This document shows, in pieces, positions 1,292 to 50,709 of a stretch of DNA of 64,000 bases (position 1 is the first letter of the stretch; each line of letters starts with the position of its first letter). The position numbers and the translations under genes were made by a program. Source of the stretch: a virus; the IMG/VR virus record IMGVR_UViG_3300043446_003193, positions 64,001 through 128,000 of that record; one strand, written 5' to 3'. A model generated the notes under the pieces. The model was not told where the DNA came from. It saw only the letters and a program-made list of their open reading frames with translations, and ran no database searches.

Positions 1292-3847
1292 TTAAAATGC
1301 AAAGAATTTCTTTGCAGTTTGTGCACCTTCGGATGCTTTTTCCCATTTAAGAGCGTTATAAAAATCATCTAATTTATTTTCTAATTCCGATTTATATATC
1401 TCATCCCTATCAATGTATGTTTCTATAAATTCCATAACTTCTTTAGGGTCATTATAATCTTTAAATGCTAATCCTTCTAGTCCTAATGGATTTTGTCTTA
1501 GATATACCCATTTTACTTTATCACCATCTCTGATTGGTTCGTGTTTATATGGACAATTGAAGAACTTTAATAATCTATTGTATGCTATTCCGGCTTTAAC
1601 GTGTGCAGGTGTTCCTTTTTCAAATTCTGCAACCGGTTTACCCTTTTCCCATCTTCCATTGTCATACTTACTTAACTCTTTAATTGCACCACCCTTTGCA
1701 ATTGTATTTACAGGAAGTTCTGGTAAACTCTTTTTAAATTTTAATAATGTATCATCAATATATTCATTGTTTTTACCCATTAGAATATCTTTTAACATTG
1801 TAGACATGAACTTCTGAAATGCTTTTGGAAATGAGGAACGAACTACATCCAATCCTTTTACATCCAACTTATCACATGGAATACCATTTTTCAAAATCAT
1901 CCATTGTGCATATCTTTTCTTTGCTACCCAAAATCCGGCTTTACTGATATACTCTTTCTTAATTTCAAATCTATGTTTCTCTTTTGGAATACAGAAAAAT
2001 CTTTCTGCTAATAGGTCATAAAATTTATTAAGGAATGTTTGTGTTTCTTCTGCAATAGTATTTACCTCTTGTGCCATTCTCTTCTCATCAAAGTTCTTAT
2101 AATCAGGGTATCTATGTTTTACCAAAGGTTCTGCCATCATATAGATTGAATCCGTATCAATATACACATTGTAATCTTCTTTCGTACCCAACTCTTTCCA
2201 ATATTTGATGTTAGCCATTTCGGCAGTTTTCTTAATTACTGTTTGACCAGTAATTGTAACCGCTTCCGCATTATCAATATCATAGAAACGAAATGCAGGT
2301 AATCCTAACACACCATACATTGAGTTCAAAAGAATCTTTTGTACCAATTGTCTTTTAGCGTAAAACTCATACTTTTCATTATCACCCGCTTCACCATATT
2401 TCTTTTCTAATTTTCTGAACTCAACCCTTTGTTGAAACCATGTATTAAGAATATCCGCAATCAAACCTGGTTTATCCTGATTATAAAGTACTCCATTTGC
2501 AGCGATACCCAAATTACTATCTTTGATTACATCTGCAAGTTCCTGTTTTGTATATTCATATTCATCACCATCCTTACCGATTATTTTATACATCCTATCT
2601 TCACCTTTAATCCATTGTTCCGGGTCCCAATTTTGTACCTTACCAATCTTTGTTTCTGGACTGATATTTAGGGTCATAATGATTGATGGATATAGAGATG
2701 TTAAATCCAAGTCATAAATCCAATCATACTTTCCAACGATAGGTTCTTTAACATATGCTCCGATGAACTTCTCTTCGTTGTTATCACGAAGTGCCTGCAT
2801 TCTTTCTTTCCTATCTTTTGGTTTATTTGGTGATACTAAATTTTTAGTTTTTAGATATGCCAAACATGCTCCTTCTAAGTACTTTGATGAATAAATGTAA
2901 TCTTCATATGGAACGAATCCGGCGTGACAAATCGCTCTACATAAATCAATGAATTGTAATTTACTATCCATTGCTACAACAAGGTCTACGTCCACAATAT
3001 TATATTCAATGAATTTTTCTAAATCCTCTTCAAATAAGTCATCCAAACTTCCTTCATACTCTACCTTACCTCTACCCAATTCTTTGGTTGCAATGTGGTT
3101 AAGGGTGTATGAACTTTCTAAACCATAGTTATAGTTTTTATAAAGATTGATGTAATCTAAAATTGATACACCACCAAAACTCCATTTCTCTCTATATGGA
3201 GACCAGAAAGTTTGTCCGATTGGAGATAATCTTTTTGCATGACCTTCTCCACATACATTTTTTAAACGATTGTAAAGATATGGAATATCAAAAAAATCTA
3301 TATTCCAACCAGTTAAAATAGTTGGGTTAATTTCCTCGTAATAATTAAGGAAAGCAAGTAAGAGATTTTTCTCGTTGTCGTAAATGTGAATAACAACTTT
3401 TCTCCCATCTTTGCTAAAATTGTTTGCATTATTTTTAACTTTTTTATGTTTATCTAAAACAAATACATCAAAAACACCAGTTGCCCCATCATGAGCAGCA
3501 ATTGCTGTAATTTCATTTTGAGCTTCTCGTGTATTTGGAAGACCTGTAATCATTTCTACCTCAATATCAAATGTCATTACTCTATGTCCATTTGAAGGTA
3601 AATCGGAATCATACATATCAACCAACACTCTCGTTGTTTCTGGTACATCACTTTCAAATAAATCTTCGGATTCTTCTTTTTCCCATTTGCTAATTCTAGT
3701 CAAACGGTCTCCGTTCATTGAAAGATGTTGACCCATAGGGTCTTTTTTGTAGGCATACTTTCGGTATGGTAAGGTGAAGTAACCTTTTTCATCGTCCCAT
3801 AAATGAATTAAGTTTCTTTGCCTTTCGTAGAATATGTTTTGATACAT
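1292..3847 (-). CDS. 43: Replicative DNA polymerase, family B, T4 gp43-like
   Basis: Phage replicative polymerase with 3'-5' proofreading. Exonuclease motifs are FDIEVE (about residues 93-98), NIDFFD (182-187) and YNIVDVD (282-288). Polymerase motif A is DLTSLYPS (381-388), motif B KILLNSMYG (504-512) and motif C YIDTDS (562-567), followed by KKRYAQ. At 851 residues it is slightly shorter than T4 gp43 (about 898). All catalytic acidic residues appear intact. It starts 8 bases after the stop of a methyltransferase gene and is followed by dUTPase and the clamp loader. It should work with gp45, gp44, gp41 and gp32, all encoded nearby. Confidence 0.97.
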   Translation of the reverse strand: MYQNIFYERQRNLIHLWDDEKGYFTLPYRKYAYKKDPMGQHLSMNGDRLTRISKWEKEESEDLFESDVPETTRVLVDMYDSDLPSNGHRVMTFDIEVEMITGLPNTREAQNEITAIAAHDGATGVFDVFVLDKHKKVKNNANNFSKDGRKVVIHIYDNEKNLLLAFLNYYEEINPTILTGWNIDFFDIPYLYNRLKNVCGEGHAKRLSPIGQTFWSPYREKWSFGGVSILDYINLYKNYNYGLESSYTLNHIATKELGRGKVEYEGSLDDLFEEDLEKFIEYNIVDVDLVVAMDSKLQFIDLCRAICHAGFVPYEDYIYSSKYLEGACLAYLKTKNLVSPNKPKDRKERMQALRDNNEEKFIGAYVKEPIVGKYDWIYDLDLTSLYPSIIMTLNISPETKIGKVQNWDPEQWIKGEDRMYKIIGKDGDEYEYTKQELADVIKDSNLGIAANGVLYNQDKPGLIADILNTWFQQRVEFRKLEKKYGEAGDNEKYEFYAKRQLVQKILLNSMYGVLGLPAFRFYDIDNAEAVTITGQTVIKKTAEMANIKYWKELGTKEDYNVYIDTDSIYMMAEPLVKHRYPDYKNFDEKRMAQEVNTIAEETQTFLNKFYDLLAERFFCIPKEKHRFEIKKEYISKAGFWVAKKRYAQWMILKNGIPCDKLDVKGLDVVRSSFPKAFQKFMSTMLKDILMGKNNEYIDDTLLKFKKSLPELPVNTIAKGGAIKELSKYDNGRWEKGKPVAEFEKGTPAHVKAGIAYNRLLKFFNCPYKHEPIRDGDKVKWVYLRQNPLGLEGLAFKDYNDPKEVMEFIETYIDRDEIYKSELENKLDDFYNALKWEKASEGAQTAKKFFAF

Positions 3848-3855: not shown

Positions 3856-5427
3856 TTATGGTTTGTAAAATATAAAGATTGGTTCGTATTTGTAAAACTG
3901 ACCTTCAATCTTCATACTATTTTTTGCTTTTGATAAATCCATTCCTGTCATCGGACTCATCGTCATTCTTAATTTTCCTCTATACTCCATTCCTAATTCA
4001 ACTAGAATATCAATTGAATCTTGCTCTAATGGGAAAAATTTATCCGTTCCAATTTTTATATCTGCAATATTCCAACAAATGTATCTATCATTTTTAAGAT
4101 ATTCAAATGCAGTTGTTAGTGTAGGTCGTAAGAAACCATCTCTCCAACTTTCATATGAACTAAATTTCTTAAATGATTGTGTATCATCATCGGAATATCT
4201 TTCTCTATCAAAGTATGGTGGAGAAGTAAATACAAAATCTAATTCACCTTTATACTTTTGAAATCTTTCTTCTAAGTGAATAATTTCAGAGCCAGTTGTA
4301 AAAATTTCGTAAGTATTTGCATGTCCCCAAAACGGGTTTGATGCTCCAGGTACTTTATTGTTAAAGAATTCTGCAAGATACTCATATCTAGTTTTTCCGA
4401 TTTCAGGTATTTGATTTTCTGTATTAGGGTCATTTCCTATATAATGTATATTTCTATCATCAACACTCAATGCTCCTAAAATTCTACCACCCCATCCAGC
4501 AGATGGGTCGTAAATATTAATCTTCTTTTGGTCTTTGATGTGGTTTGTAAATCTTTGGTAAAGATATTTTGCAGTTAGTGGTGGAAAATTTACCGCTGCT
4601 TGAGTTCCCATACCAATTCTAAATGCCGCAGTTGCCTCAGGGAATATAGTTTGTCCTAATGGATAAATTTTAATTTGAATTGGTTGTTTTGGAATATCAT
4701 ATAGATTATCAATATTCTCACCCCAATCTGCAGTTTTTAATGAAGATATGTTTTCATACTTCAATATACCCGCTGCATAAAGTTCTTTAACCTCTTGTGC
4801 AGTAATTGGTGGTGATGGAACTTTACTATCTGCTTGAGATAAACAAAATCCATGTCCTTCTAAGCTTTCACCAGATACCCATTTCTCAATCCATTCTTTA
4901 CCACTTTGGATATGTGAGTTATGAAATTCAGGATGATTTAAATGTAAAGTTTTAGAAAAACGATACATACCATCTTGTCTTGTCAATCTATTCATTTGTT
5001 TAATGAACTCTGGAAGATATTCATCATTTGCAAATACATCATATATAGATGGTTTTGGTTTATCATAAGTTGAACCACCAATACCTGTCTTATACATTGC
5101 AGGGAAGAATTGATTAACTGGTGTAGCAAACTTATTAAAGTTAAAGATGACTTCATTTCCTTCATCATCTTTTTCTTCAAACTCATTTACTTTATAAGTT
5201 TGTAGTCTTGAAAACTGCTCAATCATTTCTGATTCATCAACACCAATTCTAGGTGGTGCACCGGTTTCATTCCACTTTCTTACTGCTAATTCACGAAAGA
5301 ATGCCACCCACTCTCCGAACTTAGGGAATGGCATTTTAAGAACATCTTCGTATTTTAAGTTTACTTCTGGAGAGTAAATCCAATCGTTCTTTTCGTAAAA
5401 GTATTTTTTAGGATAATTAAAACTCAT
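3856..5427 (-). CDS. SPPY-type SAM-dependent methyltransferase, paralogue 1 (523 aa)
   Basis: Probable amino-methyltransferase acting on DNA. The C-terminal half has a SAM-pocket motif DPSAGWGGR (residues 307-315) followed by the catalytic-type motif TSPPYF (401-406) and a family block YSDDDTQSFKKF. SPPY is typical of N4-cytosine and N6-adenine enzymes. The roughly 300-residue N-terminal part has no motif I recognise and may recognise the target. Two shorter relatives lie at 6207-7436 and 11874-12929. Its ATG overlaps the sliding clamp stop codon (TAATG), so translation is probably coupled to the replication genes. The order, SAM pocket before SPPY with a long N-terminal extension, is unlike the common beta class. 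Substrate unknown. Confidence 0.75.
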   Translation of the reverse strand: MSFNYPKKYFYEKNDWIYSPEVNLKYEDVLKMPFPKFGEWVAFFRELAVRKWNETGAPPRIGVDESEMIEQFSRLQTYKVNEFEEKDDEGNEVIFNFNKFATPVNQFFPAMYKTGIGGSTYDKPKPSIYDVFANDEYLPEFIKQMNRLTRQDGMYRFSKTLHLNHPEFHNSHIQSGKEWIEKWVSGESLEGHGFCLSQADSKVPSPPITAQEVKELYAAGILKYENISSLKTADWGENIDNLYDIPKQPIQIKIYPLGQTIFPEATAAFRIGMGTQAAVNFPPLTAKYLYQRFTNHIKDQKKINIYDPSAGWGGRILGALSVDDRNIHYIGNDPNTENQIPEIGKTRYEYLAEFFNNKVPGASNPFWGHANTYEIFTTGSEIIHLEERFQKYKGELDFVFTSPPYFDRERYSDDDTQSFKKFSSYESWRDGFLRPTLTTAFEYLKNDRYICWNIADIKIGTDKFFPLEQDSIDILVELGMEYRGKLRMTMSPMTGMDLSKAKNSMKIEGQFYKYEPIFIFYKP

Positions 5428-6146
5428 TATGCAGTTAATTGAACTTCTACTAAATAATATTTTGAAGTAAAGTCATCAACTTTAAATTCAGCGTGAGCCA
5501 AACCTGCAGTTGAAACTTTTAAAGTAACTGAAGTTGCCTCTTTGTTTGCTGTAAGGATTTCTTTGAAATACTTTGCAGAGAAAGAGATTGGTTTAATTTG
5601 TTTTGTAAAATCTTTTTGTGCTGTAAATTCAATTCTATTTGAATTAACATTTGAATATCCTAATACAATTTTTAATTGCTCATCTGCTGATAAAATTGTA
5701 AAAGTATCAACATCACTTAATGCGTTTTTCGCTTTGATAAATTTATCAATAAACTTCGCATCAAATCCGATTTCAACATCCCATTCTGGAATACTTTTTA
5801 ATTCAGGAACAGATGGAATAACTGCCAAATCTGCTAATTGGAATTGTAATTTAGTATCACCATTCTTAATGAATAAGTTTACTGCTTTACCTTCAACTTG
5901 TTGAACATCAAATTCAATATCTTCGTCAGCTACTGATAACAATTTTGTTAATTGTGATGTTGTGTATACACCTAATTCTGGTGTTGTTTGTGTGAAATTA
6001 TCTAATTCAACTTCACCTAATACTGTTTTATCATCTGAGATAAAACGAGTAACTAATTTACCATCTGTCGCTTTCCAAGAAACAGATTCTACTAATCCAG
6101 CCAAATTATACTTTTGGATAAATCGTGTAACTCTTACTTTGTTCAT
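5427..6146 (-). CDS. 45: Sliding clamp, T4 gp45-like
   Basis: Processivity clamp for the family B polymerase. Its 239 residues compare with 228 for T4 gp45. The N-terminus (MNKVRVTRFIQKYN), the two-domain repeat pattern and the C-terminal strand KYYLVEVQL match the gp45 family. Identification rests on the family pattern plus position beside gp43 and gp44 homologues. In T4 the clamp also couples replication to late transcription, but no gp55 or gp33 homologue was recognised here. A 60-base leader with a TATATTTAAC element precedes it. Its stop overlaps the start of the next methyltransferase by one base. Confidence 0.88.
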   Translation of the reverse strand: MNKVRVTRFIQKYNLAGLVESVSWKATDGKLVTRFISDDKTVLGEVELDNFTQTTPELGVYTTSQLTKLLSVADEDIEFDVQQVEGKAVNLFIKNGDTKLQFQLADLAVIPSVPELKSIPEWDVEIGFDAKFIDKFIKAKNALSDVDTFTILSADEQLKIVLGYSNVNSNRIEFTAQKDFTKQIKPISFSAKYFKEILTANKEATSVTLKVSTAGLAHAEFKVDDFTSKYYLVEVQLTA

Positions 6147-6206: not shown

Positions 6207-7436
6207 TTATATTTTTTTCCATATCCATATAGGTTCGCAGAATGTTTTATCACCTGCTTCTTCTGCTTTTTTGAGTGCTTCTTCGGTGTATCTATCTTCA
6301 TCACCTTCTATAATTGAAGCTGCACCTGCACTACCTGGTCTCTTTGCCATTTCCATACCCAAACATCCTTGATATTCTGCACCCAAAGATTGAATAAAAT
6401 CATTCATTGGATTACATATTTCTTTATATCCTTTACCATCACCTTTAGAACTTGCGTATACATCTGCAATATTGATTGCTAAATATCCACCTTTACGAAT
6501 TGTAGGCCATACATTTGAAATTGTTTTATGTAAAAATAATGTATTCCAATCATCTATATTTTTATATCGTACCCAACTTTGAGTATCATCATATGAATAC
6601 CTTTCTACATTAAAATATGGTGGGGAACTGAATACAATATCAAAGTGTTCTTTATACATTGAAAGGTCTGCATCTTCTGCCGGTGATTCAATAAAATCGG
6701 CTTTCTTTTCAGTTTCAAAAAACCCGTTATTCTTTGTATAAAATTCTGCTTGTTGTCTATAAATTGGATGATTTTCTTTACGAGGATCAATACCTACATA
6801 ATGTTTTCCTTTTTCACTTGCAAAGAAACCACACATTCTATCACCCCATCCTGCTGATATATCCAAAACATTCTCAGCTTCCACGTAATCATACAATGCT
6901 TTGGCAACATTAGGTTTAAATTGAGAACATATGTATTTTCTTAAACTCAAACATACCCTCAAAGCTGCTTTATCTATTTCATCAAATTTAAGAGTATACA
7001 ATCCACCCATAAGAGTGGTCATAAATTCTTTACTTGTCCAAGTTCTCAATGGACCAGGTGAAACTGTACCATCAACACTCCAACGATTTTGTTGTTGGAA
7101 AAAATTAGATGCTTCGTTTCCGGTATTCAATCTTCTAAAGTATTGTGGTTTTCCTTGAAAATCTAAACTATATCTAAAATCGGATGCTTTTCTTGGAAAC
7201 CATTCACCTTCGGTAAGTAGTTCTCTCCAACGAATTCCTTTTAATTTAAGATATTCTTTTCTTGCTTCTTCTTCGGTAATTTCCGCATATGGAAGTGGGT
7301 ACTCCATGCAAATATCTGCAAGAGATTCTTTAACATCTTCTCTATCAAATGTTTTTTGTATATATTCCCACTCTTCTTCATTGATATGAAGATATGGTTC
7401 CATTCCTTTAAATTTATTAAAATATTCTATGAACAT
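6207..7436 (-). CDS. SPPY-type SAM-dependent methyltransferase, paralogue 2 (409 aa)
   Basis: Second member of the methyltransferase trio. SAM motif SAGWGDR lies at residues 194-200 and SSPPYF at 270-275, followed by NVERYSYDDTQSW, the same block as in the other two. The sequence before the SAM motif (KPNVAKALYDYV) matches the equivalent region of paralogue 3 (RPSVAKWIYNNY), showing common descent of the core. Its start overlaps the stop of the GNAT gene by 10 bases, and that gene in turn overlaps the asparagine-synthase-like gene. The three therefore look like one translationally coupled unit and may act on the same substrate. The target base and sequence cannot be read from the DNA. Confidence 0.75.
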   Translation of the reverse strand: MFIEYFNKFKGMEPYLHINEEEWEYIQKTFDREDVKESLADICMEYPLPYAEITEEEARKEYLKLKGIRWRELLTEGEWFPRKASDFRYSLDFQGKPQYFRRLNTGNEASNFFQQQNRWSVDGTVSPGPLRTWTSKEFMTTLMGGLYTLKFDEIDKAALRVCLSLRKYICSQFKPNVAKALYDYVEAENVLDISAGWGDRMCGFFASEKGKHYVGIDPRKENHPIYRQQAEFYTKNNGFFETEKKADFIESPAEDADLSMYKEHFDIVFSSPPYFNVERYSYDDTQSWVRYKNIDDWNTLFLHKTISNVWPTIRKGGYLAINIADVYASSKGDGKGYKEICNPMNDFIQSLGAEYQGCLGMEMAKRPGSAGAASIIEGDEDRYTEEALKKAEEAGDKTFCEPIWIWKKI

Positions 7437-7954
7437 ACTGTCTCAATATTTTTATCAGCAACTAACCTCAATCTAAAAACAATACCAGGTATTATACCAT
7501 CTTTTTTAGATGTCCAGTATATTTCACTATCCTTTACAAATCCGTTTCTATAATAGAATTCAACTGCTCTCGTATTAAACTCTCTTACGGTTAAGAACAA
7601 ATTTTCTGCATGTTGTGATTTACAATATTCTATAAATTTATTAAGAACTCTAACTGATGCTCCAGTTACTGAGTGATTACTTGCAATCTGATGTAAAATA
7701 TAATCACCTTTCTTTTTATAAGTGGTTGCGTTTCTACTCATCTTACCATTACTACCATATCTACCAAAAGTAACTACAACACCATCTTGCAGTATTATAC
7801 CACCTTTTTCAATATATTTTTCCAACTTAAAACCTTGCTTATGTAGGTGTGGAAATATTTCAGGATACAAATCAATAATAGCAGAAGCCTGATTTACTGC
7901 TTCTGTCATTTCTGTTGTACCTTTTTCTGCTTTTATAAAATTAAGCATATTCAA
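7427..7954 (-). CDS. GNAT-fold acyltransferase-like protein
   Basis: A 175-residue protein with the layout of the GNAT superfamily. After a core strand region, a helix (VLNKFIEYC) leads to strand LFLTV and the motif NTRAVEFYYRNGF, typical of the C-terminal half of GNAT folds. GNAT enzymes usually transfer acyl groups from acyl-CoA; the phage Mu Mom DNA-modification protein is a divergent member of this fold. It overlaps the upstream asparagine-synthase-like gene by 14 bases and the downstream methyltransferase by 10. Its use of a nucleobase, protein or small molecule as substrate is not known. A second in-frame ATG two codons later could be the start. Confidence 0.7.
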   Translation of the reverse strand: MNMLNFIKAEKGTTEMTEAVNQASAIIDLYPEIFPHLHKQGFKLEKYIEKGGIILQDGVVVTFGRYGSNGKMSRNATTYKKKGDYILHQIASNHSVTGASVRVLNKFIEYCKSQHAENLFLTVREFNTRAVEFYYRNGFVKDSEIYWTSKKDGIIPGIVFRLRLVADKNIETVCS

Positions 7955-9398
7955 AAAATTTATTTAAGTTTAATTTGTCTTTATATGAATATAAGGAATT
8001 TAATTGAGATTTCAAAATATCTTTTCTGGCTTCCATCATATCGCCTGTTCTTGCACCTTTTGCAAAAAATACTTTTGGTCTAAAAAGAAGTTCATCTGAT
8101 ATTTCACCTTTAAATGCGGCTCTCAATAGTGGTTTCATATGACCGTTTTCCTTTTGATATAGTGGTGGAATGTTTAATGTATATTCCACAAATGGTCTCC
8201 AACTATATGGTGTACGAACTTCTACCGTCCCACCCCACATAATAGATTGGTTTGTTGTTAAGAAATTGGTTTTATGTACATCCTCTACTAACTTTCTCCT
8301 AGCCTTATCATAATCTTCAGGTTTGTAATGAAACGCTTGAATGTGTCCATAACTACCCCATATCTCATCGGATAGGTCACCACTAAATACTACTTTAAAT
8401 CCCAACTCATTTATCTTTTTACCCAATGCTATTTGAGCAATTGCAGAACCAACATTTTGCCATCTACTTTGTTCTATCACATAAAGTGTTTCATCTATTG
8501 CATCTAATACATCCTGTTCGCTTAATATAATTTCATGTAACTTAACACCAAATTCTTTTGCAGCTATTCTGGCATATTTTATATCATCATTCTTTGTATC
8601 ACCATCTCCCATTGATACTACAAATGCTTCAATATCAGGTTTAATTTTAGAAAGTAAATAGGTTGTAATTACTGAATCAATTCCACCACTAAGGATTGTA
8701 CAAATAGGAACATCTGATACCATTTTAACCCTTACAGCTTCTTCCATCATTGTTCTAATATTCTTAACAATAGTTTCTCTATCATCATTTATTATTTCAT
8801 TTGGAAGTTTATAATAAGTTTGTGTTGAATGTTCTAATGTATTATAATCATATTCTAAATAAGTACCTGGATAAACGGCCTTTACTTGCTTCTCATATAA
8901 TTCTGAAATTGGTAATCCTTTCTTTTCCGAACAAAATACTAATTTACCGTCATTATCAATTGCATACCATAAAGGTAATTCACCAACATAATCTCTAACA
9001 ACAAATATTTTATTAAGTTTTGTATCAACTATTGCAAATGAAAACATACCATCTAATAATTCAAATGATTTTGTTCCAAATTCACAATAAGCGTTTAGGA
9101 TGATTTCAGTATCAGATTTTGTTTTGAACTTTGTTTTTAAACCTTTTTTTAATTCTTTTGTTTCTATACTATCCCAAAGTTCACCATTGTAAACAATACA
9201 TACGGTCTTATCTTCATTCCACATTGGTTGATTTGCAGATGAAGATAAGTCCTGTATTGAAAGACGATTGTGTCCAACATAAACGTTGTCCACTTTATCT
9301 ACTTTAGAAGCATCTCTGCCTCTATGAATTATTTTATTTAATTGGGTATAGGTTTGTTCCTCAGAGGTAAACCAATTACCGCCTATTATTCCACACAT
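7941..9398 (-). CDS. asnB: Asparagine-synthase-like glutamine amidotransferase
   Basis: Class II glutamine amidotransferase fused to an ATP-pyrophosphatase domain, the architecture of asparagine synthase B. The nucleophile Cys2 is in MCGIIGG, and YNGE (70-73) fits the glutaminase site. The PP-loop SGGIDS (237-242) and SGDLSDEIWG (339-348) belong to the synthase domain. The usual RGPD motif reads RGRD here (26-29). It could make asparagine or amidate another carboxylate, as related enzymes do in natural-product pathways. It is the first gene of a coupled trio with the GNAT and methyltransferase genes, which favours a specialised modification role over simple amino-acid supply, but that is inference. 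Confidence 0.85.
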   Translation of the reverse strand: MCGIIGGNWFTSEEQTYTQLNKIIHRGRDASKVDKVDNVYVGHNRLSIQDLSSSANQPMWNEDKTVCIVYNGELWDSIETKELKKGLKTKFKTKSDTEIILNAYCEFGTKSFELLDGMFSFAIVDTKLNKIFVVRDYVGELPLWYAIDNDGKLVFCSEKKGLPISELYEKQVKAVYPGTYLEYDYNTLEHSTQTYYKLPNEIINDDRETIVKNIRTMMEEAVRVKMVSDVPICTILSGGIDSVITTYLLSKIKPDIEAFVVSMGDGDTKNDDIKYARIAAKEFGVKLHEIILSEQDVLDAIDETLYVIEQSRWQNVGSAIAQIALGKKINELGFKVVFSGDLSDEIWGSYGHIQAFHYKPEDYDKARRKLVEDVHKTNFLTTNQSIMWGGTVEVRTPYSWRPFVEYTLNIPPLYQKENGHMKPLLRAAFKGEISDELLFRPKVFFAKGARTGDMMEARKDILKSQLNSLYSYKDKLNLNKFFEYA

Positions 9399-9433: not shown

Positions 9434-9697
9434 CTATTTTACTGCTTCGTTTATTGCATTAACGTAAGCAATTTTTGATGAAAGACCAGTGAACCTATTT
9501 ATTTCAACTCCATCTTTTACAATTACAACGGTTGGTACTGAGCGTACTCCGTATTTTTCGGTTTCATCACTATATTCATCAATATCAATATCTTCAAATT
9601 TTACATTTGAAAATTGACCTTTGATTTCATTCATTACCGGTGCTAATGCTCTACACGGACCACACCATACTGCTGAGAATTTTTTAACTGTTACCAT
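9434..9697 (-). CDS. trxA: Thioredoxin
   Basis: An 87-residue thioredoxin-fold protein with the classic WCGPC redox site near the N-terminus and the cis-proline segment GVRSVPTVV. It is shorter than bacterial thioredoxin (about 105 residues), mainly at the N-terminus, as is common in phage. It lies just downstream of the ribonucleotide reductase gene and overlaps the intervening small Cys-rich gene by 14 bases. The obvious role is to reduce the C-terminal Cys pair of the phage reductase. Regeneration would need a host thioredoxin reductase, since none was seen here. Confidence 0.93.
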   Translation of the reverse strand: MVTVKKFSAVWCGPCRALAPVMNEIKGQFSNVKFEDIDIDEYSDETEKYGVRSVPTVVIVKDGVEINRFTGLSSKIAYVNAINEAVK

Positions 9698-9887
9698 TTT
9701 CTTTTTCTTTTTCTTTTGTATTTGTATTTCCTTTTATACCAATTGGAACATATGGACAATGGCGGCAGCCACTCCCACAGCAATAACCTCTTTCAAGGTG
9801 ATACTTAGGAGTGAACACCACTTTACCATTTTCCAAATAATATAACGATTCATCATTTTTATTTAATTTCACAAGCACCTCCTGCAC
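9684..9887 (-). CDS. Small Cys-rich protein, DUF5522-like
   Basis: 67 residues with the cluster RGYCCGSGCRHCPY in the centre, preceded by KVVFTPKYHLE. This pattern matches, from memory, a short family of unknown function (DUF5522) common in Bacteroidota, which is one reason for the host inference. Four cysteines in twelve residues suggest metal or Fe-S binding. The start overlaps the end of the ribonucleotide reductase gene by 29 bases, and no other ATG precedes the conserved part. The C-terminal tail is Lys/Glu/Asn-rich and probably disordered. Placement between reductase and thioredoxin hints at a redox role. Confidence 0.75.
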   Translation of the reverse strand: MQEVLVKLNKNDESLYYLENGKVVFTPKYHLERGYCCGSGCRHCPYVPIGIKGNTNTKEKEKENGNS

Positions 9888-11715
9888 AAGCTAATTCACC
9901 ACTTAAATCTGTATTATCTTCCAATTCTACAACTTTACTTAGGTCAACATCATGTAATGTTTTCATAAGTTCTTCATACTTTTCTTTTGTACAATCTTCA
10001 AATGGGGCTTGAATATAAGTTCCACCATCATAAGGTAATACTGAAAGTCCGTTGTAAGAATCTTTGTTCTCCCACATCCATTCACCAACTGCATCCCACT
10101 CATGTTCTCTAATAGAAATTGTTGCAGATACATTGTGTGAATTGTTTCCTGTTCTATGTCCAGGTTTAATCCATTCTTGATGAACTCTCTTAACTCTTTC
10201 TAATAATTGAATTGGAGATTCAGTACGGAAGATTGCGTTTTCAGGTGCTTTTTGTGGAATACCGATTACTGCCGTATCATGTGGTCTAAAATATTCATCT
10301 TCAATCAATTCTGGATGATTTACTAATAAGTGAGTGTAAATACTTTCGTTCTTACCTACTCTTACTCTACGAATGTAGTAATCATTATGCCAAGCGTGAA
10401 TTCCAGATGATGTACCTAAAGTTAATGATGTTGTTCCGGCAGGCTTAACAGTCGTTGTTCTTGCTGAATGGTTGATACCTAAAATATCTGCTACTCTTAT
10501 ATTTTCTTCTTTAACTGCTTTTGCTGCAGCTTTCATGTCTAATTTTAAAACTGCACCACTACCGATACCTGTCATAGATACACCAATAAGTGCGTCCTTT
10601 TCAGTTGTTCTTTGCCAGATTGGTCTTAGGTAATGGAAATCGGTATAACCCGCTTGTAATGTTCCGATGAATGATGCTGCTTTTACTCTTGCATTCAAAT
10701 CATCCTGGTCAACTACATCACTTACATTTACTTCACATAAGTTACAGAATTGAAAAGGTCTTAATGCAATCTCACAACAAGGATTAGTTCCCCAATCTTT
10801 ATCATTTGATAAGTAGATACCAGGCTCACCTGCACCACTTGCTTCAATTCTTTTCCACAAATCCATAAAATATGTTTTTGTGATTTTATGTCTCATTAAT
10901 ACTGCTGAGTTATTTGCTCTACCTCTTTGTGGATTATTTTCCCACCAAGCACCACTCTTACAACTAATCATCTTATCATCATTTGCAGAGAATAAAGAAA
11001 TAAGTGCTGCTCTACGGATACCACCTGCTAATACTGCATCAGCAATGTGACAAATAATATCATGTACTTCAATTGGTTCTAATTTATCACTATCTTTTTT
11101 GGCATCTAAGATACCTTCAATCTTAATTAAACATTCTTTTAGGGGTTGAGGACCTGGTGCTTTACCACCTGATGTAATCAATCTTGCACCTTTTGGACGG
11201 ATATCTCTAAAATCAAATACTGGTTTACTTCCACCAAAGAAATATGCTTTAATTAAAACAGATATTGCATCTGCCCATCCTTCAATAGAATCACCAATAA
11301 GAAATCTTCTTGTTTTATCTTGATTTGGTTTTCTAATTTCTGGTAATTGATCAACGTGATGTTTTTGTACTGAATATCCTACACCAGTTCCACCTAATAA
11401 TAAGAACATAATTTCGGAGAACACTCTCCAATCATCTGCAGGTGCAAATGCACAATTATAAATTCTATTTGGACTTATTTCAATTGGTTTACCTGCGAAC
11501 TGCATTGAACGCATAGAAGGTAAAACCTTTTTATCATAAACAAATTTGTAGTTATCTCTAATCTCTTGCTCTAATTGTGGATATTTTTTAATATGCATCT
11601 CCATATTACGGGTTACCAACTCTTCCCATGTTTCTCTTCTGTTTAATTCTGGTCTAAACTTTGCGTACTTCATATAGACCGTAATGTCTGATAAAATTCT
11701 TTGTGAAATGTCCAT
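9859..11715 (-). CDS. nrdJ: Ribonucleotide reductase, class II (adenosylcobalamin-dependent) type
   Basis: Converts ribonucleotides to deoxyribonucleotides for phage DNA synthesis. Visible features are NCAF (87-90) with the conserved Cys, GGTGVGYSVQ (108-117), the NPCCEI active-site motif (about 311) where NxCxE is expected, and KPAGTTS. A C-terminal pair C610 and C615 (Cx4C, as in the Lactobacillus-type enzyme) should be reduced by thioredoxin. No small NrdB-like or activase gene lies nearby and thioredoxin is two genes downstream, so class II is most likely. At 618 residues it is shorter than the roughly 740-residue Lactobacillus enzyme. It would depend on cobalamin in the host. Confidence 0.88.
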   Translation of the reverse strand: MDISQRILSDITVYMKYAKFRPELNRRETWEELVTRNMEMHIKKYPQLEQEIRDNYKFVYDKKVLPSMRSMQFAGKPIEISPNRIYNCAFAPADDWRVFSEIMFLLLGGTGVGYSVQKHHVDQLPEIRKPNQDKTRRFLIGDSIEGWADAISVLIKAYFFGGSKPVFDFRDIRPKGARLITSGGKAPGPQPLKECLIKIEGILDAKKDSDKLEPIEVHDIICHIADAVLAGGIRRAALISLFSANDDKMISCKSGAWWENNPQRGRANNSAVLMRHKITKTYFMDLWKRIEASGAGEPGIYLSNDKDWGTNPCCEIALRPFQFCNLCEVNVSDVVDQDDLNARVKAASFIGTLQAGYTDFHYLRPIWQRTTEKDALIGVSMTGIGSGAVLKLDMKAAAKAVKEENIRVADILGINHSARTTTVKPAGTTSLTLGTSSGIHAWHNDYYIRRVRVGKNESIYTHLLVNHPELIEDEYFRPHDTAVIGIPQKAPENAIFRTESPIQLLERVKRVHQEWIKPGHRTGNNSHNVSATISIREHEWDAVGEWMWENKDSYNGLSVLPYDGGTYIQAPFEDCTKEKYEELMKTLHDVDLSKVVELEDNTDLSGELACAGGACEIK

Positions 11716-11873: not shown

Positions 11874-12929
11874 TTAATTTTTAGTAAACACAAATATTGG
11901 TTCTAATTTAGTTCCGTTTCCAGCTACCGAAGATAATATAAGGTACAAAATGTCAGTTTTTGTAAATCCCAATTCTTCTGCAATTCTAACGGTTTCCGTT
12001 TCAATTTGTTTATATTTTGGAGTGTTTGCAATGTTTATTAACATCTTTCCTCCCACTTTTAAACCAGTATGACAATTTGCCATAGTTTGTTTTAAAAATC
12101 CGTTTAACCAATCGGTTTCATTTGGAAACTTTTTATACGATTGAGTTTCTTCATCTGAATATTTTTCCGTATCAAAATATGGTGGTGAAGTAAAACACAA
12201 ATCCAAACTTTGTTCATCTGGTATAAATTCTTCCGAACCCATTTTATGGAGTATTATCTCCTTATTAAAGAAGTTTAATTCATCTTTTAATCGTATTAAC
12301 CCTTCGTATGTTTTAGTTGAAGGATCAGTTCCTATGTAGGTTTTACACCTACTTGTAAGGAATCCGGTCAATCTACCACCCCATCCACAACTCATGTCCC
12401 AAACGGTTTCTCCACCATAGTTGTTATAAATCCATTTGGCTACCGATGGACGAAAGTTACTTACTGATTGATTTCCTCCATAGATTTTAAAATTCTGTCT
12501 TAATCGGTTTAAAGTAAATGTACCGTTTCCATGTTTCAATTGCCAATCCCAAGTTTTTCTAATAACCTCTTTTAATTTGTTATCATCATTCCAATAATCA
12601 ATTGGTTTCATTGTATTGTTACCACATGCTACTTCAACCCAATGTGGAAAATAACTCCATGCTAATGATAGGCAATGCATGGTTTGTTCTAATTTTCCAT
12701 CTTTATAAATTGTATTTTCATCAAAATTAATCAATGATTTCAATTGGTTTAGTTTTTCATGCTTTGAAACATTATAATGTGGAAATCCTTTTTTTCGGTG
12801 ATAATCAAATATAATTTTTTCAGCATGTTCTCTATCAGTTACCTCAAATATGTTTGTGGTAATTTTATGATATTCTAAATCTAAATCATCAACTTCAATA
12901 AACTTACTAAAACTATTATAATTTATCAT
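11874..12929 (-). CDS. SPPY-type SAM-dependent methyltransferase, paralogue 3 (351 aa)
   Basis: Third and shortest member of the trio. The SAM motif reads CGWGGR (181-186), with Cys in place of the Ser-Ala seen in the others, and TSPPYF is at 247-252, followed by DTEKYSDEETQSYKKF. The N-terminal 150 residues differ from both paralogues. Its ATG overlaps the helicase stop (TAATG), so, like paralogue 1, it is coupled to a replication gene. Three separate copies with different N-termini suggest different target sites or successive steps on one base. Methylation of DNA is the likely function from the SPPY motif, but specificity is unknown. Confidence 0.75.
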   Translation of the reverse strand: MINYNSFSKFIEVDDLDLEYHKITTNIFEVTDREHAEKIIFDYHRKKGFPHYNVSKHEKLNQLKSLINFDENTIYKDGKLEQTMHCLSLAWSYFPHWVEVACGNNTMKPIDYWNDDNKLKEVIRKTWDWQLKHGNGTFTLNRLRQNFKIYGGNQSVSNFRPSVAKWIYNNYGGETVWDMSCGWGGRLTGFLTSRCKTYIGTDPSTKTYEGLIRLKDELNFFNKEIILHKMGSEEFIPDEQSLDLCFTSPPYFDTEKYSDEETQSYKKFPNETDWLNGFLKQTMANCHTGLKVGGKMLINIANTPKYKQIETETVRIAEELGFTKTDILYLILSSVAGNGTKLEPIFVFTKN

Positions 12930-27964: not shown

Positions 27965-30730
27965 TTAAGGTTTAGTTTGTGAATTAGCAGTATATAGTGC
28001 TGCTGCTTTATTATACATTGCACTACTAATTTTCTTACCATCTAAGTATACTTGTGAATTTCCAGTAAAATCACTATCTGCATCAATTGCAAGTATATCT
28101 AATAATCTTGTCATTTCAAGCAACTGTGATATTATTGCTGCTCTAAATTGTTCTTCCGTTCCGTTTGCAATGGTTTCTAATTCGTTTTGTTCTTTTATTA
28201 TTCTTTGGGTTTCTGCATCCTGTTTTTTCTTTTCTTCTGCTGCTTTTAATGCCTCGTCTTGTTTTTTAGCATCTTCACTAAACCAATTATCCCAAATTCC
28301 TTTAATTCCACCTATTACCCCACCAACAGCTCCACCAACTGCAGTTCCAATTCCAGGTATAACACTTCCAATTGCTGCTCCATATCCACCATATTCCAAT
28401 GCAGTTGCACCAACTTTCATTCCTTTACCTTGATTAACTTTACTTCTATCTGCTTCTGCCATACCCTGTGCTTCTCTTTCTCCTCCAAAATAATCACCAG
28501 CCATAGATGCGGCTGTTCCGATTATTCCCGCTACACCTCCCTTTAAAATTCCCTTAGTCAATCCTTTCATAACGCCTTTAACTCCAACTTTACCTGCAGT
28601 TTGTAAACCAGTTTTTGCAACAGCACCAGCCGTTGATTTTCCGGCCTGTTGAAGTGCTAACTCTCTTGCTTCTTTACCCGCAAATCCTGCTAATATTTGT
28701 TTTTGTGAGAATTTTTTAACACCAGTTTCGGCTACTTCACTAGCTGCTTTTTTACCAAATATACTGGCTACTTTAGGTCCTGCTTTTTTAAATATCGTCT
28801 TTCCAATAGTACTTGCAAGAGCTACTCCACCTACTGCAACTAAAATGAATCCTAATGTTCTTAACATTTCACTAAGTTGAGTATTGAATTCAAGTTCTTT
28901 TTTAGCTTGTTCTGCTTTAGCTTGTGCGCTCCACATAGCATTAGCTGCTTCTGCATTTGCAAATTTTACACTTATTTCACCGGTTTTGAATTGTTGTGCA
29001 ATTCCGGTCATTATATTTGCTATATTATTTAATGACCCTAATTGTTTTTGTTGTTCAGTTTCTAATGGCCCACCTTTACCACCTTTTCCAATTTTCATTA
29101 TAGTTTCCATGTCCATTCCAGTTGCTTCTTGTAAAGACTGTCTTTGGAACATATTCAACTTATTTAAATCAATTCCTTTTAATTGCTGTTGTAATGCTTG
29201 AGCCGCTCCTGCTGCATCACCACCTGCAAATTTTTGTCTAACTTGAGAAAGGTCTACTTGTCTACCTAATAATGCCGATAACTGCATTTCTGATTTGATA
29301 CTATCTTTATAATTTAGTACCATTTTTTGTCCAGCTTGTAAAACTTTTTGTGCCGCAACTCCCATTACTCTAAGTGTTGCAACTTGTTTTATTAAACTTT
29401 GCTCATTACCATAATTATTTTGTAATAAAGCTTCAGATGATTCTGCTAAATCTTCGTATAAAGCGTTAATAGGAACACCGGTTGCTTTTGCCATACTCTC
29501 AGCCATTCCTAAAGAATTAACTGCTGCTTTTCCACTTAAATCTCCTACAATTCTAAATGTATTTGCAACACCTCCTAATTGTTCAGATGATACGCCAGTT
29601 CTTGCTGCAATCATCGCTATATCTGCTCCTGCTTCCTGTGCATTCTTTCCAGCTAATCCTAAATTATTAGATGCGAATTTTGTTGCTGCTCCAAAATCTT
29701 GTCCAGATACTCCCAATTTGGCCATTTGGGCCTGTAATGCTCCTGATATTTTTACATTTTGACCAAGATTCATTCCAACCTTTGTCAATTCTACATTAAG
29801 ATCAATAATACTTTCTTGCAACTTTTTGTTCATTTGTAATTGAACTTCAGTTGGCATTCCAAATAAAGATATTCCTTTGGCGTCAAATATAGTTTTCATC
29901 AAAGAACCTAAAGCGGCTCCTAATGCAAAAATACCACCTATCATAGTCATTTTACTAAGACCACTCAATGCATTTACTAATCCAGATGCACCTGATATTC
30001 CACCGGCTGCTTCCGCAGCAACTCCTGCTATTCCTTTTTGTAATTCTTGTACAGCCTTTTTACCCTCTGAAAACGCTTTTACCATTTCATGGGTAGAACC
30101 ACTTACGGATTTCATTTCATTGTATAACTTTTTAGCCTCTTCATTGGTTAAATCCATTGTATCAAGGAAAGAATCCATTTCTTCACCTGCATATTTTATA
30201 CGAGATGCTAATTGTTCTGCATCAATTTTGCCAGTTTTGAATTCTCTCATTGCTTTGGTGACAGTATTACTATAATCACCCATTGCTTTGTTAGCTTCTC
30301 TGGCAGCTGCTGCTCCTTCTTTTGTTTTGAATGCTTGTTTATCTAATTGTAATCCTATTTTTCCAATTAGACCTTCCATTGCGTTGAAAGCCTGTGCGGT
30401 TTTATTACTTTGACTTCTAATTAATGTCTGATTTCTAGACATTTTTTTAGCAATTGATAATGCTTCTTGAGCACCATCAACTTCTTCCTGCACTAAATCT
30501 CTAGCTTCTTTTCTTAGCTTTACTTCCTTCGTATATAGTTTTAATTTTTCAATTAAATCCTTTCTAAGAGCTTCATCTATTTTTTGTCCTTTGGCTTTTT
30601 CTACATTTAACTGTTTTAACGTGGCAAGTGTTTCCCTTTGAACATCTCCCAATGATTCATCGGTTGCATTTCCTGTTTTTGCAAACCCACCCGCTTCGTT
30701 TCTTAAAGTTGTATACTTTGATTTAGCCAT
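27965..30730 (-). CDS. 29: Tail tape measure protein
   Basis: 921 residues, the expected largest tail-operon gene after the tail chaperones. The N-terminal 250 residues are charged and helical with coiled-coil character. Hydrophobic Ala/Gly-rich segments lie near residues 235-280, 640-665 and 770-830, as in tape measure proteins that reach the host membrane. The C-terminus returns to a charged helix. Using the common rule of about 1.5 angstroms per residue, the tail would be roughly 140 nm long, but T4-like values vary. Placement between chaperone-like and baseplate genes supports the call. Confidence 0.85.
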   Translation of the reverse strand: MAKSKYTTLRNEAGGFAKTGNATDESLGDVQRETLATLKQLNVEKAKGQKIDEALRKDLIEKLKLYTKEVKLRKEARDLVQEEVDGAQEALSIAKKMSRNQTLIRSQSNKTAQAFNAMEGLIGKIGLQLDKQAFKTKEGAAAAREANKAMGDYSNTVTKAMREFKTGKIDAEQLASRIKYAGEEMDSFLDTMDLTNEEAKKLYNEMKSVSGSTHEMVKAFSEGKKAVQELQKGIAGVAAEAAGGISGASGLVNALSGLSKMTMIGGIFALGAALGSLMKTIFDAKGISLFGMPTEVQLQMNKKLQESIIDLNVELTKVGMNLGQNVKISGALQAQMAKLGVSGQDFGAATKFASNNLGLAGKNAQEAGADIAMIAARTGVSSEQLGGVANTFRIVGDLSGKAAVNSLGMAESMAKATGVPINALYEDLAESSEALLQNNYGNEQSLIKQVATLRVMGVAAQKVLQAGQKMVLNYKDSIKSEMQLSALLGRQVDLSQVRQKFAGGDAAGAAQALQQQLKGIDLNKLNMFQRQSLQEATGMDMETIMKIGKGGKGGPLETEQQKQLGSLNNIANIMTGIAQQFKTGEISVKFANAEAANAMWSAQAKAEQAKKELEFNTQLSEMLRTLGFILVAVGGVALASTIGKTIFKKAGPKVASIFGKKAASEVAETGVKKFSQKQILAGFAGKEARELALQQAGKSTAGAVAKTGLQTAGKVGVKGVMKGLTKGILKGGVAGIIGTAASMAGDYFGGEREAQGMAEADRSKVNQGKGMKVGATALEYGGYGAAIGSVIPGIGTAVGGAVGGVIGGIKGIWDNWFSEDAKKQDEALKAAEEKKKQDAETQRIIKEQNELETIANGTEEQFRAAIISQLLEMTRLLDILAIDADSDFTGNSQVYLDGKKISSAMYNKAAALYTANSQTKP

Positions 30731-30742
30731 TTATAAAAGATA

Positions 30743-30982
30743 TTATTTTATATCATTAACATCTATACCTTTACTTTTTAAATAAGGTTTAGCTGTTTTA
30801 TCAACATCTTTTTCTATATCAGCAATGTGTTGGTCAAATTTTTTCCAAACATTTTTTAATGATGGATATTTTTTGAATGTTCTTTCAATCCAACCATCTT
30901 GTTGATTTTTTGATTTATTTTTATAATAATCAACAAATAAATCTGTAAAATCTTCAAATTCTTTTAATGTAATTTTGGACAT
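30743..30982 (-). CDS. Small helical tail-operon protein (79 aa)
   Basis: Short charged helical protein (EFEDFTDLFVDYYKNKSK at the start, Lys-rich end) located directly before the tape measure gene, 12 bases apart. Could be a tail assembly factor or chaperone by position. No family recognised. It has its own ATATTTATA element 20 bases upstream, so it begins the tape measure/baseplate transcript. Confidence 0.65.
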   Translation of the reverse strand: MSKITLKEFEDFTDLFVDYYKNKSKNQQDGWIERTFKKYPSLKNVWKKFDQHIADIEKDVDKTAKPYLKSKGIDVNDIK

Positions 30983-31002
30983 AGTTATAGTTTTCTATTT
31001 CA

Positions 31003-31012
31003 TATAAATATA
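31003..31012 (-). promoter_or_regulatory. Putative late promoter element
   Basis: The coding strand reads TATATTTATA, 20 bases before the small gene that opens the tape measure/baseplate operon. Confidence 0.5.
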
Positions 31013-31026
31013 AAATAAGTAATTAA

Positions 31027-31281
31027 TTATCGCCTTTTCCCTGCTTTGTTATTTGTATTAACCTTTTTAAGAGATTCTGATTCTGATTTTTTAGTTTCTA
31101 ACAACTTATTAAAATAGAATTTTCTAAATTTGACGGGCATATTATACACATCACCCCAACTAAACCCACCATTAGAGTAATATAATAAATCAAAAATCTC
31201 CGTATGAAGTATTACCGAATAATTAGATGGAAGGGTAAAAAAAGTCAAGTCCGAATGGGACTTGGAGAGCCTCCTTCTCAC
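31027..31281 (-). CDS. Distal part of tail assembly chaperone, probably made by frameshifting
   Basis: Open frame overlapping the end of the gp26-like gene by 59 bases in the +1 frame, with only a GTG as possible start at 31281. The core TEIFDLLYYSNGG and GDVYNMPVKFRKFYFNKLL resembles the short second protein of T4-like tail assembly pairs (gp51-like). The tail is Lys/Ser/Asn-rich. A run of seven T at 31237-31243 lies within the overlap, and a +1 or -2 slip there would join ...GLDFF to TLPSNYSV. Placement just before the tape measure region is where lambda- and P2-type phages make frameshifted G-T chaperones. Independent translation from GTG is the alternative. Confidence 0.6.
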   Translation of the reverse strand: MRRRLSKSHSDLTFFTLPSNYSVILHTEIFDLLYYSNGGFSWGDVYNMPVKFRKFYFNKLLETKKSESESLKKVNTNNKAGKRR

Positions 31282-32059
31282 CGGTAATAGGGCTTACATA
31301 ATCAAATGTAAAATCAATATCAGGAGTGATATCTTTAATGTGATTTCTAAATACTCTTGAATCCGATGCTAAAAATTGATTATTAACAAATTTTGCAATT
31401 GTACCCAAATCTCTTTCACCATTAACTGATGTAATGATGTATCTCAATCTGGTTGTAATTTCTGATGTGTTATCTTTGTTAATCTTAGAAATTGCATTTA
31501 AATCTGCATCAATTTTCTTTTCTAAACCATGAGTTAATAATTGATAAGTCAATTTTGTACCATTCTTTAAAGTGAATTCGTACTCATTGTTTCTGTTTAA
31601 TCTACTGAAGTCAATTTCTTTTGTTTTCAATTGACTCATATCAACTGTATAATTAACAACATCTTCCGTAATTGGGTCTGTTATTTGGACTGTATAATCT
31701 GGACCATATGATAGAACTCTACTAGCAATTAAGATAGCATTCTTATCACCAATTAAAAGGTCATCTGCTTTAACACCATCTTCAATTACTACTGCTTCTA
31801 ATAATTTATCTAAAAGAATTCCTTTTTTAATTAAATTAGGAGATGCAAGAATATCTTCTTCTTTTGCAGTCATTAATTTAATTGTAACTTCACCTTTAGA
31901 TAATGGATGACCTTCTGGATAACCCAACCCTTGAGATGGTAAGGTAATTGTTTCGGTTGGGAAATCGTATGATTTTTTAGGTGTAGATGAAACGGATGGG
32001 GTAGTTTGTGTAGTTGCACCCAATCCTCTTGTAACTTGTTGTTCAATATTTTCGCTCAT
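31223..32059 (-). CDS. 26: Tail assembly chaperone / baseplate hub assembly protein, gp26-like
   Basis: 278 residues. The segment FPTETITLPSQGLGYPEGHPLS, then KEEDILASPNLIKKG, LLIGDKNAILIASRVLSYG and FVNNQFLASDSR match the pattern of the T4 baseplate protein gp26 family and analogous tail chaperones of other myophages. These proteins assist assembly and need not be in the virion. It follows the tail tube gene after a strong terminator. A second frame overlaps its last 59 bases and may be fused to it by ribosomal frameshifting at a T7 run, giving a minor long product. Confidence 0.7.
   Translation of the reverse strand: MSENIEQQVTRGLGATTQTTPSVSSTPKKSYDFPTETITLPSQGLGYPEGHPLSKGEVTIKLMTAKEEDILASPNLIKKGILLDKLLEAVVIEDGVKADDLLIGDKNAILIASRVLSYGPDYTVQITDPITEDVVNYTVDMSQLKTKEIDFSRLNRNNEYEFTLKNGTKLTYQLLTHGLEKKIDADLNAISKINKDNTSEITTRLRYIITSVNGERDLGTIAKFVNNQFLASDSRVFRNHIKDITPDIDFTFDYVSPITGEKEALQVPFGLDFFYPSI
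31237..31243 (-). promoter_or_regulatory. Candidate ribosomal slippage site (T7 run)
   Basis: On the coding strand the zero frame reads GAC TTT TTT TAC CCT and ends in TAA 12 bases later. Moving +1 (or -2) on the T run gives TTT TTT ACC CTT and continues for 70 more codons. Homopolymeric slip sites like this occur in tail chaperone genes of other phages. Confidence 0.5.
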
Positions 32060-32080
32060 AATATAACTTTGTGTTTAATA

Positions 32081-32092
32081 ATATATATACAC
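32081..32092 (-). promoter_or_regulatory. Weak late-type promoter element
   Basis: The coding strand reads GTGTATATATAT, 21 bases before the gp26-like ATG and just downstream of the tube-gene terminator. It does not match ATATTTATA exactly, so it is less certain. Confidence 0.3.
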
Positions 32093-32105
32093 TTTTTAAA
32101 AAAAT

Positions 32106-32136
32106 AAAAGGGGATATCATTTCTGATTCCCCTTTT
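32106..32136 (-). terminator. Intrinsic terminator after the tail tube gene
   Basis: On the transcribed sense strand a 9-bp stem AAAAGGGGA/TCCCCTTTT encloses an inner ATCA/TGAT stem closed by a GAAA tetraloop, followed by ATTTTTTT. It lies 23 bases after the gp19 stop. This is the strongest terminator in the window. Confidence 0.85.
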
Positions 32137-32159
32137 ACATCTGTATCTCTTTACTAAAA

Positions 32160-32648
32160 TTAGTACTCTAAAATTGCGTAGTCGTATGCCAAAGTTAATT
32201 CAATTGATAACGGGTCGTTAGAAGCCCAATCCAATTCACCAAAGTTTGCTTGAGTGATAAATGCTCCTTTTAATGTCCATTGCTCAATCTTATCACCAAC
32301 TGGTCCTAATAAGTAGAAAGTAACATCTTTCTTATAGAAAGCTGCATAACCATCTCTACCTGTCAAAGATTCATGTGATTGACGAACCCACTCCATAACT
32401 TGCTGTGCTCCTGATGGAACGATTGGGTCATAAAGAGTAATGTTTACATCATCCCAAGTTGATTTTCCTTTAATCTTTCTCTTCACGTTGATGTGGTCTA
32501 ACTCAACTACTTCAGAAGTGAAAGTTGGTCTATTTGCTGTTTTGATAATGTATGATTCAATACCATTGATTTCCATAATGAATCTGTTACCAAGTTTTGG
32601 TTCAAAATTCTTATAAAACATCTTATCAAACTCTAATATTTCTGGCAT
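32160..32648 (-). CDS. 19: Tail tube protein, T4 gp19-like
   Basis: 162 residues, practically the length of T4 gp19 (163). Motifs YDPIVPSGAQQVMEWV, SHESLTGRDGYAAFYKKD and GAFITQANFGELDW are characteristic of the gp19 family. The protein stacks as hexameric rings to form the inner tube through which DNA passes. It follows the sheath gene, is followed by a strong terminator, and has its own late-type promoter element, allowing the high expression expected of a tube protein. Confidence 0.95.
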   Translation of the reverse strand: MPEILEFDKMFYKNFEPKLGNRFIMEINGIESYIIKTANRPTFTSEVVELDHINVKRKIKGKSTWDDVNITLYDPIVPSGAQQVMEWVRQSHESLTGRDGYAAFYKKDVTFYLLGPVGDKIEQWTLKGAFITQANFGELDWASNDPLSIELTLAYDYAILEY

Positions 32649-43594: not shown

Positions 43595-43626
43595 TCGTAG
43601 TTATTCTCTGTTTAATTAATACTACA

Positions 43627-43636
43627 TATAAGTATT
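43627..43636 (-). promoter_or_regulatory. Putative late promoter element (one mismatch)
   Basis: The coding strand reads AATACTTATA, 32 bases before the ATG of the 1100-residue fibre; one base differs from ATATTTATA. Confidence 0.35.
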
Positions 43637-43655
43637 TAATTTCTTCCGAATTGAG

Positions 43656-47033: not shown

Positions 47034-47051
47034 CTATATTCTGTTTTTGAA

Positions 47052-47061
47052 TATAAATATC
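47052..47061 (-). promoter_or_regulatory. Putative late promoter element
   Basis: The coding strand reads GATATTTATA, 18 bases before the 784-residue fibre ATG. Confidence 0.5.
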
Positions 47062-47077
47062 AATTTTTACTATTAAA

Positions 47078-50706: not shown

Positions 50707-50709
50707 ATC

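Follow-up and report, generated by a model that had tools for sequence, protein, structure and literature searches.

Why should a phage keep a glutamine amidotransferase of the AsnB family, a GNAT protein and a transferase with an SPPYF motif one after another among its replication genes? This question is raised by the window analysed here, a stretch of 64,000 bases (64001-128000) of the 209,443-base IMG/VR virus record G000, in which the three genes, called here AsnB, GNAT and MT409, overlap one another. An earlier note on this DNA had proposed that they form a nucleobase-modification pathway giving a carboxamide or acyl group. The proposal has strong comparative support, although its details on the working unit, on GNAT and on precedents had to be corrected. 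Our data make it probable that the trio is a version of a modular phage cassette for nucleobase hypermodification by a proposed MT409-AsnB-GNAT route; the most likely target is the DNA of the phage itself. This reading is supported by the conserved and coupled gene order, by purifying selection, by the intact glutaminase and ATP sites and the altered acceptor pocket of AsnB, and by the genes that recur beside this AsnB clade, which are of nucleobase-modifying and hypermodification types.

The identities given to the three proteins from the letters alone were borne out by Pfam, motifs and AlphaFold2 (AF2) models searched with Foldseek, with the reserve that the Pfam match of MT409 is sub-threshold. 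AsnB matches PF00733 (E 4e-45) and GATase_6/7 in Pfam, and it scores above the cut-off for the asparagine synthase family TIGR01536 (290 against 267.1 bits). By alignment it keeps the glutaminase residues C1, R49, N74, E76 and D98, the PP-loop and K449, and in these features and in domain order it is like the bacterial and human asparagine synthetases (AS-B, ASNS). It differs from them in the aspartate site, which is formed by E348, D384 and R387 in E. coli and by Glu364, Asp400 and Arg403 in human ASNS (PMC6748925). In the window AsnB these residues are altered (E348D, D384N and R387T in E. coli numbering), D405 is replaced by W, and the T322/R324 region is replaced as well. D384N was found in every viral-clade member examined, the CmoX/CmoA-linked ones included; R387T, E348D and D405W are confined to the GNAT-linked subclade. 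Judged from these residues, the acceptor pocket is unlike that of aspartate-specific enzymes. The best AsnB matches in a scan of cellular genomes have 25-34% identity (most 26-32%), and by its sequence the window AsnB is a member of a virus-specific clade. In a maximum-likelihood tree the AsnB found with GNAT is sister to the AsnB found with pyridoxal-phosphate (PLP) enzymes and D2-hydroxyacid dehydrogenases (D2HDH), with support of 100/100. The phrog_16728 match is common to the AsnB proteins of the window and of the phages TurkishDelight and Motura, and weakly to CmoY.

These features bear on an explanation which has to be weighed, namely that MT409 simply methylates DNA at N4 of cytosine or N6 of adenine, that AsnB and GNAT are an unrelated auxiliary metabolic pair making asparagine or an acetylated or amidated small molecule during infection, and that the three are neighbours because genes are often inserted into the replication operon. 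The TIGR01536 score is what such an explanation would predict, and MT409 and its paralogs are widespread without AsnB. An AsnB together with a GNAT is also found in the synthesis of an osmolyte, N-acetylglutaminylglutamine amide (TIGR03104). Against this stand the changed aspartate pocket, the lack of any close cellular AsnB homolog, and the company that AsnB keeps in unrelated phages, where it accompanies MT409-family, CmoX/CmoA, thymidylate-synthase (TS)-like and M6-type PLP genes. We regard a metabolic pair beside a plain methyltransferase as unlikely.

The preferred reading, a base-hypermodification cassette, draws on viral relatives, of which 183 were obtained in the MT409 search, 107 with GNAT, and 47 with AsnB as a single protein (203 and 219 in alignment searches). 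AsnB-centred scans of IMG/VR covered about 117 distinct AsnB proteins. In these, GNAT is directly the next gene after all 52 distinct GNAT-type AsnB; the two are an obligate pair. An MT409-family gene lies within 5 kb of 54 of the 59 distinct AsnB whose contigs give 5 kb to either side, and of 29/29 GNAT-type AsnB among them, against a background of 9.1% of G000 within 5 kb of such a gene. A larger, partly redundant count gave 89/89 GNAT-type loci. The earlier note had named related phages in which the three genes never co-occur as evidence against its proposal; what was found is regular co-occurrence. The coupling of all three genes that it supposed holds in full for AsnB and GNAT but not for MT409, an older clamp- and polymerase-linked gene that is also found without the pair.

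Since the co-occurrence is largely shared descent, the differing contexts weigh more. The trio is kept in three neighbourhoods among close relatives, and AsnB-GNAT-MT409 recurs in contigs L198-L200, whose polymerases are 41-46% identical to that of G000. The slot of AsnB-GNAT is filled by AsnB-D2HDH-PLP2 (PLP2 being a PLP enzyme) in L298, which is closely related to G000. In L297 and L300 (polymerase 31% identical) an MT409-family gene, PLP2, D2HDH and AsnB follow in this order as overlapping genes. The arrangements can be written as [HD]-AsnB-GNAT-MT409 (cassette A), MT-PLP2-D2HDH-(MT)-AsnB (B), [HD]-AsnB-D2HDH-PLP2-MT409 (C), MT-TS-like-AsnB-PLP2-HD and variants (D), and CmoX-AsnB-CmoA (E), where MT is a methyltransferase and HD an HD-domain protein. 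All non-CmoA cassettes share AsnB, and an MT409-family enzyme is present in nearly all of them. HD homologs stand directly upstream of AsnB in cassettes A and C and behind PLP2 in cassette D; G000 encodes its HD-domain protein far from the trio, at 207187-207840, outside the window. A TS homolog of 232 aa (L030:5216-5914 and homologs) directly precedes AsnB in many cassettes, and this short protein may be a new pyrimidine-modifying enzyme. Streptomyces phage TurkishDelight has the order ParB, ParB, C5 methyltransferase with SPPC, AsnB with GATase, and a CmoA-like gene (TIGR00740, E 2.6e-25, below cut-off); the AsnB relatives in TurkishDelight, L447, L449 and L450 stand in CmoA/CmoX-type cassettes. 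The nearest cultured homologs of PLP2 are in the M6/YuA phages, whose thymidine is hypermodified (M6 gp52, tblastn 7e-14, profile E 8e-32), and the TS gp58 of M6 matches the TS-like profile at 6e-11. Taken from these gene orders and sequences, the trio is one form of a widespread, modular family of phage gene cassettes.

MT409 matches PF01555 (N6_N4_Mtase) below threshold (19.6 bits, cut-off 26.7) and carries the motifs DISAGWGDR (motif I for S-adenosylmethionine, SAM), SSPPYF and SSPPYFNVERYS..DDTQSW. Its AF2 model (pLDDT, the predicted local distance difference test, 90.3) has the fold of a class-I SAM-dependent enzyme. MT409 had no informative match when its sequence was compared with the PDB, and its tblastn matches span at most 55% of the protein. 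A distant MT relative is present in Bacteroides phages of the DAC16/SJC03 types. The motifs suggest that it likely acts on an exocyclic amine. Two paralogs in the window, MT523 and MT351, were not in the earlier note: three SPPYF methyltransferases are thus present in one phage, all among replication genes. Tandem copies of MT409 are frequent in relatives. PLP fold-II enzymes (phrog_7093 / phrog_3650) stand beside MT409 with no AsnB at L014:2025-2798, L028:9221-9988, L016:9293-10252 and L081:473-1447. The residues in which MT409 proteins that have AsnB as a neighbour differ from those that do not (W70, K83, H303, K315, G352, G368 and others) follow phylogeny and were given no further weight.

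The top Foldseek matches of MT409 are class-I methyltransferases that include RNA enzymes (tRNA m1A58, Trm11 m2G10, NSUN6), and carbamoylmethyl and 3-amino-3-carboxypropyl (acp) groups are known in tRNA. Both agree with a cassette that modifies RNA, for example tRNA, with the SPPYF enzyme working on an exocyclic amine there. We hold this to be improbable, as MT409 and MT523 adjoin the clamp, the polymerase and the clamp loader in most relatives, and the relatives of AsnB and of the PLP enzymes are DNA-modification systems (PMC12783734; M6). Because of this linkage and these precedents, DNA is favoured over RNA as the substrate.

GNAT matches PF00583 with E 6e-6 and gave no tblastn match. Its predicted structure (AF2 pLDDT 90.7) has a GNAT fold, and the nearest structures in Foldseek are PaiA/RimI-type acetyltransferases. 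H36, H88, Q89, R124, N127, Y134 and W147 are invariant in 18 GNAT orthologs. The parallel with the DNA-modification enzyme Mom that the earlier note had drawn survives as far as the fold; homology to Mom found no support, as only other GNATs were matched in Pfam, PHROG, NCBIfam and the PDB, Mom itself not being a query. It is very improbable that adenine N6 receives a carbamoylmethyl-type group directly from GNAT, with AsnB giving the amide precursor and MT409 only methylating: the GNAT fold with a non-canonical coenzyme A (CoA) loop, the amide-forming chemistry of AsnB and the membership of Mom in the GNAT superfamily (PMC7824862) would suit it, but no sequence similarity to Mom was found and sister cassettes swap GNAT for PLP2/D2HDH while keeping AsnB and an MT409-family gene. 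In L223 (3778-4947) and L224 a GNAT-type domain is, by eye, apparently fused to an oxygenase-like domain; this fusion adjoins a distant (37%) relative of the GNAT protein, with no AsnB there.

In the hypermodification route that we prefer, MT409 would put a carboxylate-bearing group on the exocyclic amine of cytosine or adenine; on the simplest inference, its family would provide the base-linked carboxylate in place of CmoA/CmoX. As a guess, the handle could be acp from SAM, which would offer a carboxylate and an amine for AsnB and GNAT, and it is considered because one group would satisfy the needs of all three enzymes. AsnB, with its intact catalytic residues and its family, would adenylate the base-linked carboxylate and turn it into a carboxamide with ammonia from glutamine. 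GNAT would acylate or otherwise tailor the amine, and the final base would shield the phage DNA from host restriction. GNAT, PLP2 and D2HDH would then be alternative tailoring enzymes, as expected for an amino-acid-like handle. That PLP enzymes and acetyltransferases tailor amino acids linked to a base is a known theme. More specifically, we suggest only tentatively a previously undescribed DNA hypermodification in which the SPPYF enzyme transfers an amino-acid-bearing group, such as acp, to the exocyclic amine of a base, with interchangeable tailoring by AsnB (amide) and GNAT (N-acyl) and, in sister cassettes, by 2-hydroxyacid dehydrogenases and PLP enzymes of the M6 type.

Several observations weigh against a hypermodification cassette. 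No match to TIGR00740 (CmoA) was found in G000 or in eight relatives, and HMUDK_hel (PF18723) is absent from the G000 record; the source of the carboxylate is therefore hypothetical. For want of CmoA in these genomes carboxy-SAM is disfavoured and its route via a phage CmoA was dropped, though the host may supply it. No acp transferase is among the top 50 Foldseek matches of MT409. The CoA-binding loop of GNAT (Q/RxxGxG/A) varies among the 18 orthologs, so that plain acetyl transfer is not assured, although GNAT may still use CoA. MT409 without AsnB and GNAT is common in relatives and so has a function of its own, possibly plain methylation. At 70% identity the AsnB proteins collapse to 15 clusters, part of the co-occurrence being shared ancestry. 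Finally, the three genes do not stand together in L121, in which other genes come between AsnB-GNAT and an MT409 placed about 2.2 kb upstream.

The three genes belong to a minus-strand operon with the order ribonucleotide reductase (RNR)-DUF5522-thioredoxin-AsnB-GNAT-MT409-clamp-MT523-DNA polymerase-dUTPase, so the trio does lie, as the earlier note had it, inside the replication operon; it stands between RNR/thioredoxin and clamp/polymerase (Table 1). The open reading frames and their overlaps are also exactly as it had them, 14 nt for AsnB/GNAT (7941-7954) and 10 nt for GNAT/MT409 (7427-7436). An alternative in-frame ATG lies two codons into GNAT (7946-7948) and would give 173 aa; several orthologs begin there, and if GNAT starts at ATG 7948 its overlap with AsnB may be only 8 nt. 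Of 52 distinct relatives, 51 have an overlap at this junction, of 1, 8, 10 or 14 nt. The ratio of nonsynonymous to synonymous substitution rates (dN/dS) is 0.09 for AsnB, 0.15 for GNAT and 0.10 for MT409 against L005 and 0.12-0.22 for the trio genes against L108, and all three are under purifying selection. Gene order is kept across about 100 contigs. Because of this and of dN/dS values of 0.09-0.22, the arrangement is not a matter of chance.

Table 1. The trio and neighbouring genes of the operon region, with positions in the window
Feature	Position	Strand	Length	Basis and remarks
AsnB-family glutamine amidotransferase / AMP-forming amide synthetase, phrog_16728	7941-9398	-	485 aa	Pfam, PHROG, residues, tree
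GNAT-fold protein	7427-7954	-	175 aa from TTG 7954	PF00583, AF2, Foldseek
MT409, SPPYF-motif SAM-dependent transferase	6207-7436	-	409 aa	Sub-threshold PF01555, motifs, AF2
MT523, SPPYF methyltransferase paralog	3856-5427	-		Profile match E 4e-111; between clamp and polymerase
MT351, SPPYF methyltransferase paralog	11874-12929	-		Profile match E 6e-102; adjoins helicase
Putative sliding clamp	5427-6146	-	239 aa	By eye and position beside polymerase, no profile search; synteny; adjoins MT409 in many relatives
DNA polymerase, B-family type	1292-3847	-	851 aa	Sequence read by eye; synteny
Thioredoxin-like protein	9434-9697	-		By eye (WCGPC motif); upstream of AsnB in many relatives
DUF5522 protein	9684-9887			PF17653, E 2e-18; between RNR and thioredoxin
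RNR gene	9859-11715		618 aa	

In relatives the RNR slot holds a non-homologous nrdA/nrdB-like pair instead. No close match to this DNA was found among cultured phages. The host is probably a bacteroidote, because TonB-receptor-like proteins (G000 30120-32372 and 42686-45967) and lipoprotein-like proteins were recognised by eye outside the window and DUF5522 is mostly a Bacteroidota family. IscA/IscU-like Fe-S proteins were seen by eye at G000 47030-47769, and glycosyltransferase-like genes, with others related to them, form a large cluster at G000 about 48000-62000, both outside the window. Glycan decoration was rejected as a role for the trio: an AsnB that does lie among glycosyltransferase genes, that of S-SCSM1, is an outlier on a long branch, and the G000 cluster is about 10-23 kb from the trio.

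How does the trio compare with known systems? Mom of phage Mu is not known to need AsnB or a methyltransferase, and Mom and the window GNAT have in common the GNAT superfamily, with no likeness beyond the fold found in the database searches. Achromobacter phage Motura has an AsnB homolog in a 7-deazaguanine cluster (QueC, QueE and a TGT-type gene), and the likeness lies in the recruitment of the AsnB family into a phage base-modification cluster. The Motura AsnB differs in belonging to another clade on a long branch and in working with a transglycosylase pathway, not an SPPYF transferase. Pseudomonas phage M6 hypermodifies thymidine to 5-aminoethyl-dU. Its PLP enzyme gp52 is homologous to the PLP2 of the sister cassettes, which is absent from G000; no homolog of the M6 proteins gp46-gp61 was detected in G000, and with PF18723 also lacking a route through 5-hydroxymethyl-dU was discarded for this phage.

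Phage DNA modification with AsnB-family enzymes is thus already known, from CmoY and from Motura-type 7-deazaguanine clusters. The earlier note knew of no pathway with exactly this set, and none was found in the searched literature, but CmoA/CmoX/CmoY (published in 2025; PMC12783734) and the Motura AsnB are precedents for it. A virus-specific, GATase-bearing AsnB clade together with SPPYF enzymes and GNAT or M6-type PLP enzymes was likewise not found described in that literature, though a description may exist elsewhere. CmoA and CmoX make 5-carboxymethylcytosine, which CmoY, an asparagine-synthetase homolog, amidates with glycine, the product in Synechococcus phage S-B43 being 5-glycyl-carboxymethylcytosine (PMC12783734). 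The second-largest cluster of such ligases retains a glutaminase domain; that study predicted ammonia as its substrate without expressing it (PMC12783734). Both the S-B43 system and the trio code for an asparagine-synthetase-family enzyme beside a SAM-type transferase. The transferase of the trio is however an SPPYF, N6_N4_Mtase-like enzyme and not a C5/SPPC one, no C5 methyltransferase was seen beside the trio, and GNAT is added. In contrast to CmoY, the window AsnB retains the glutaminase domain and is predicted to use ammonia and not glycine. The trio would then stand for a large, still uncharacterised family of phage cassettes for base modification, in which one virus-specific amide-forming enzyme works with swapped partners that install or tailor the handle, whose chemistry is possibly new. 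Such a family supplies concrete gene sets for the discovery of new DNA bases and connects the CmoY and M6 systems.

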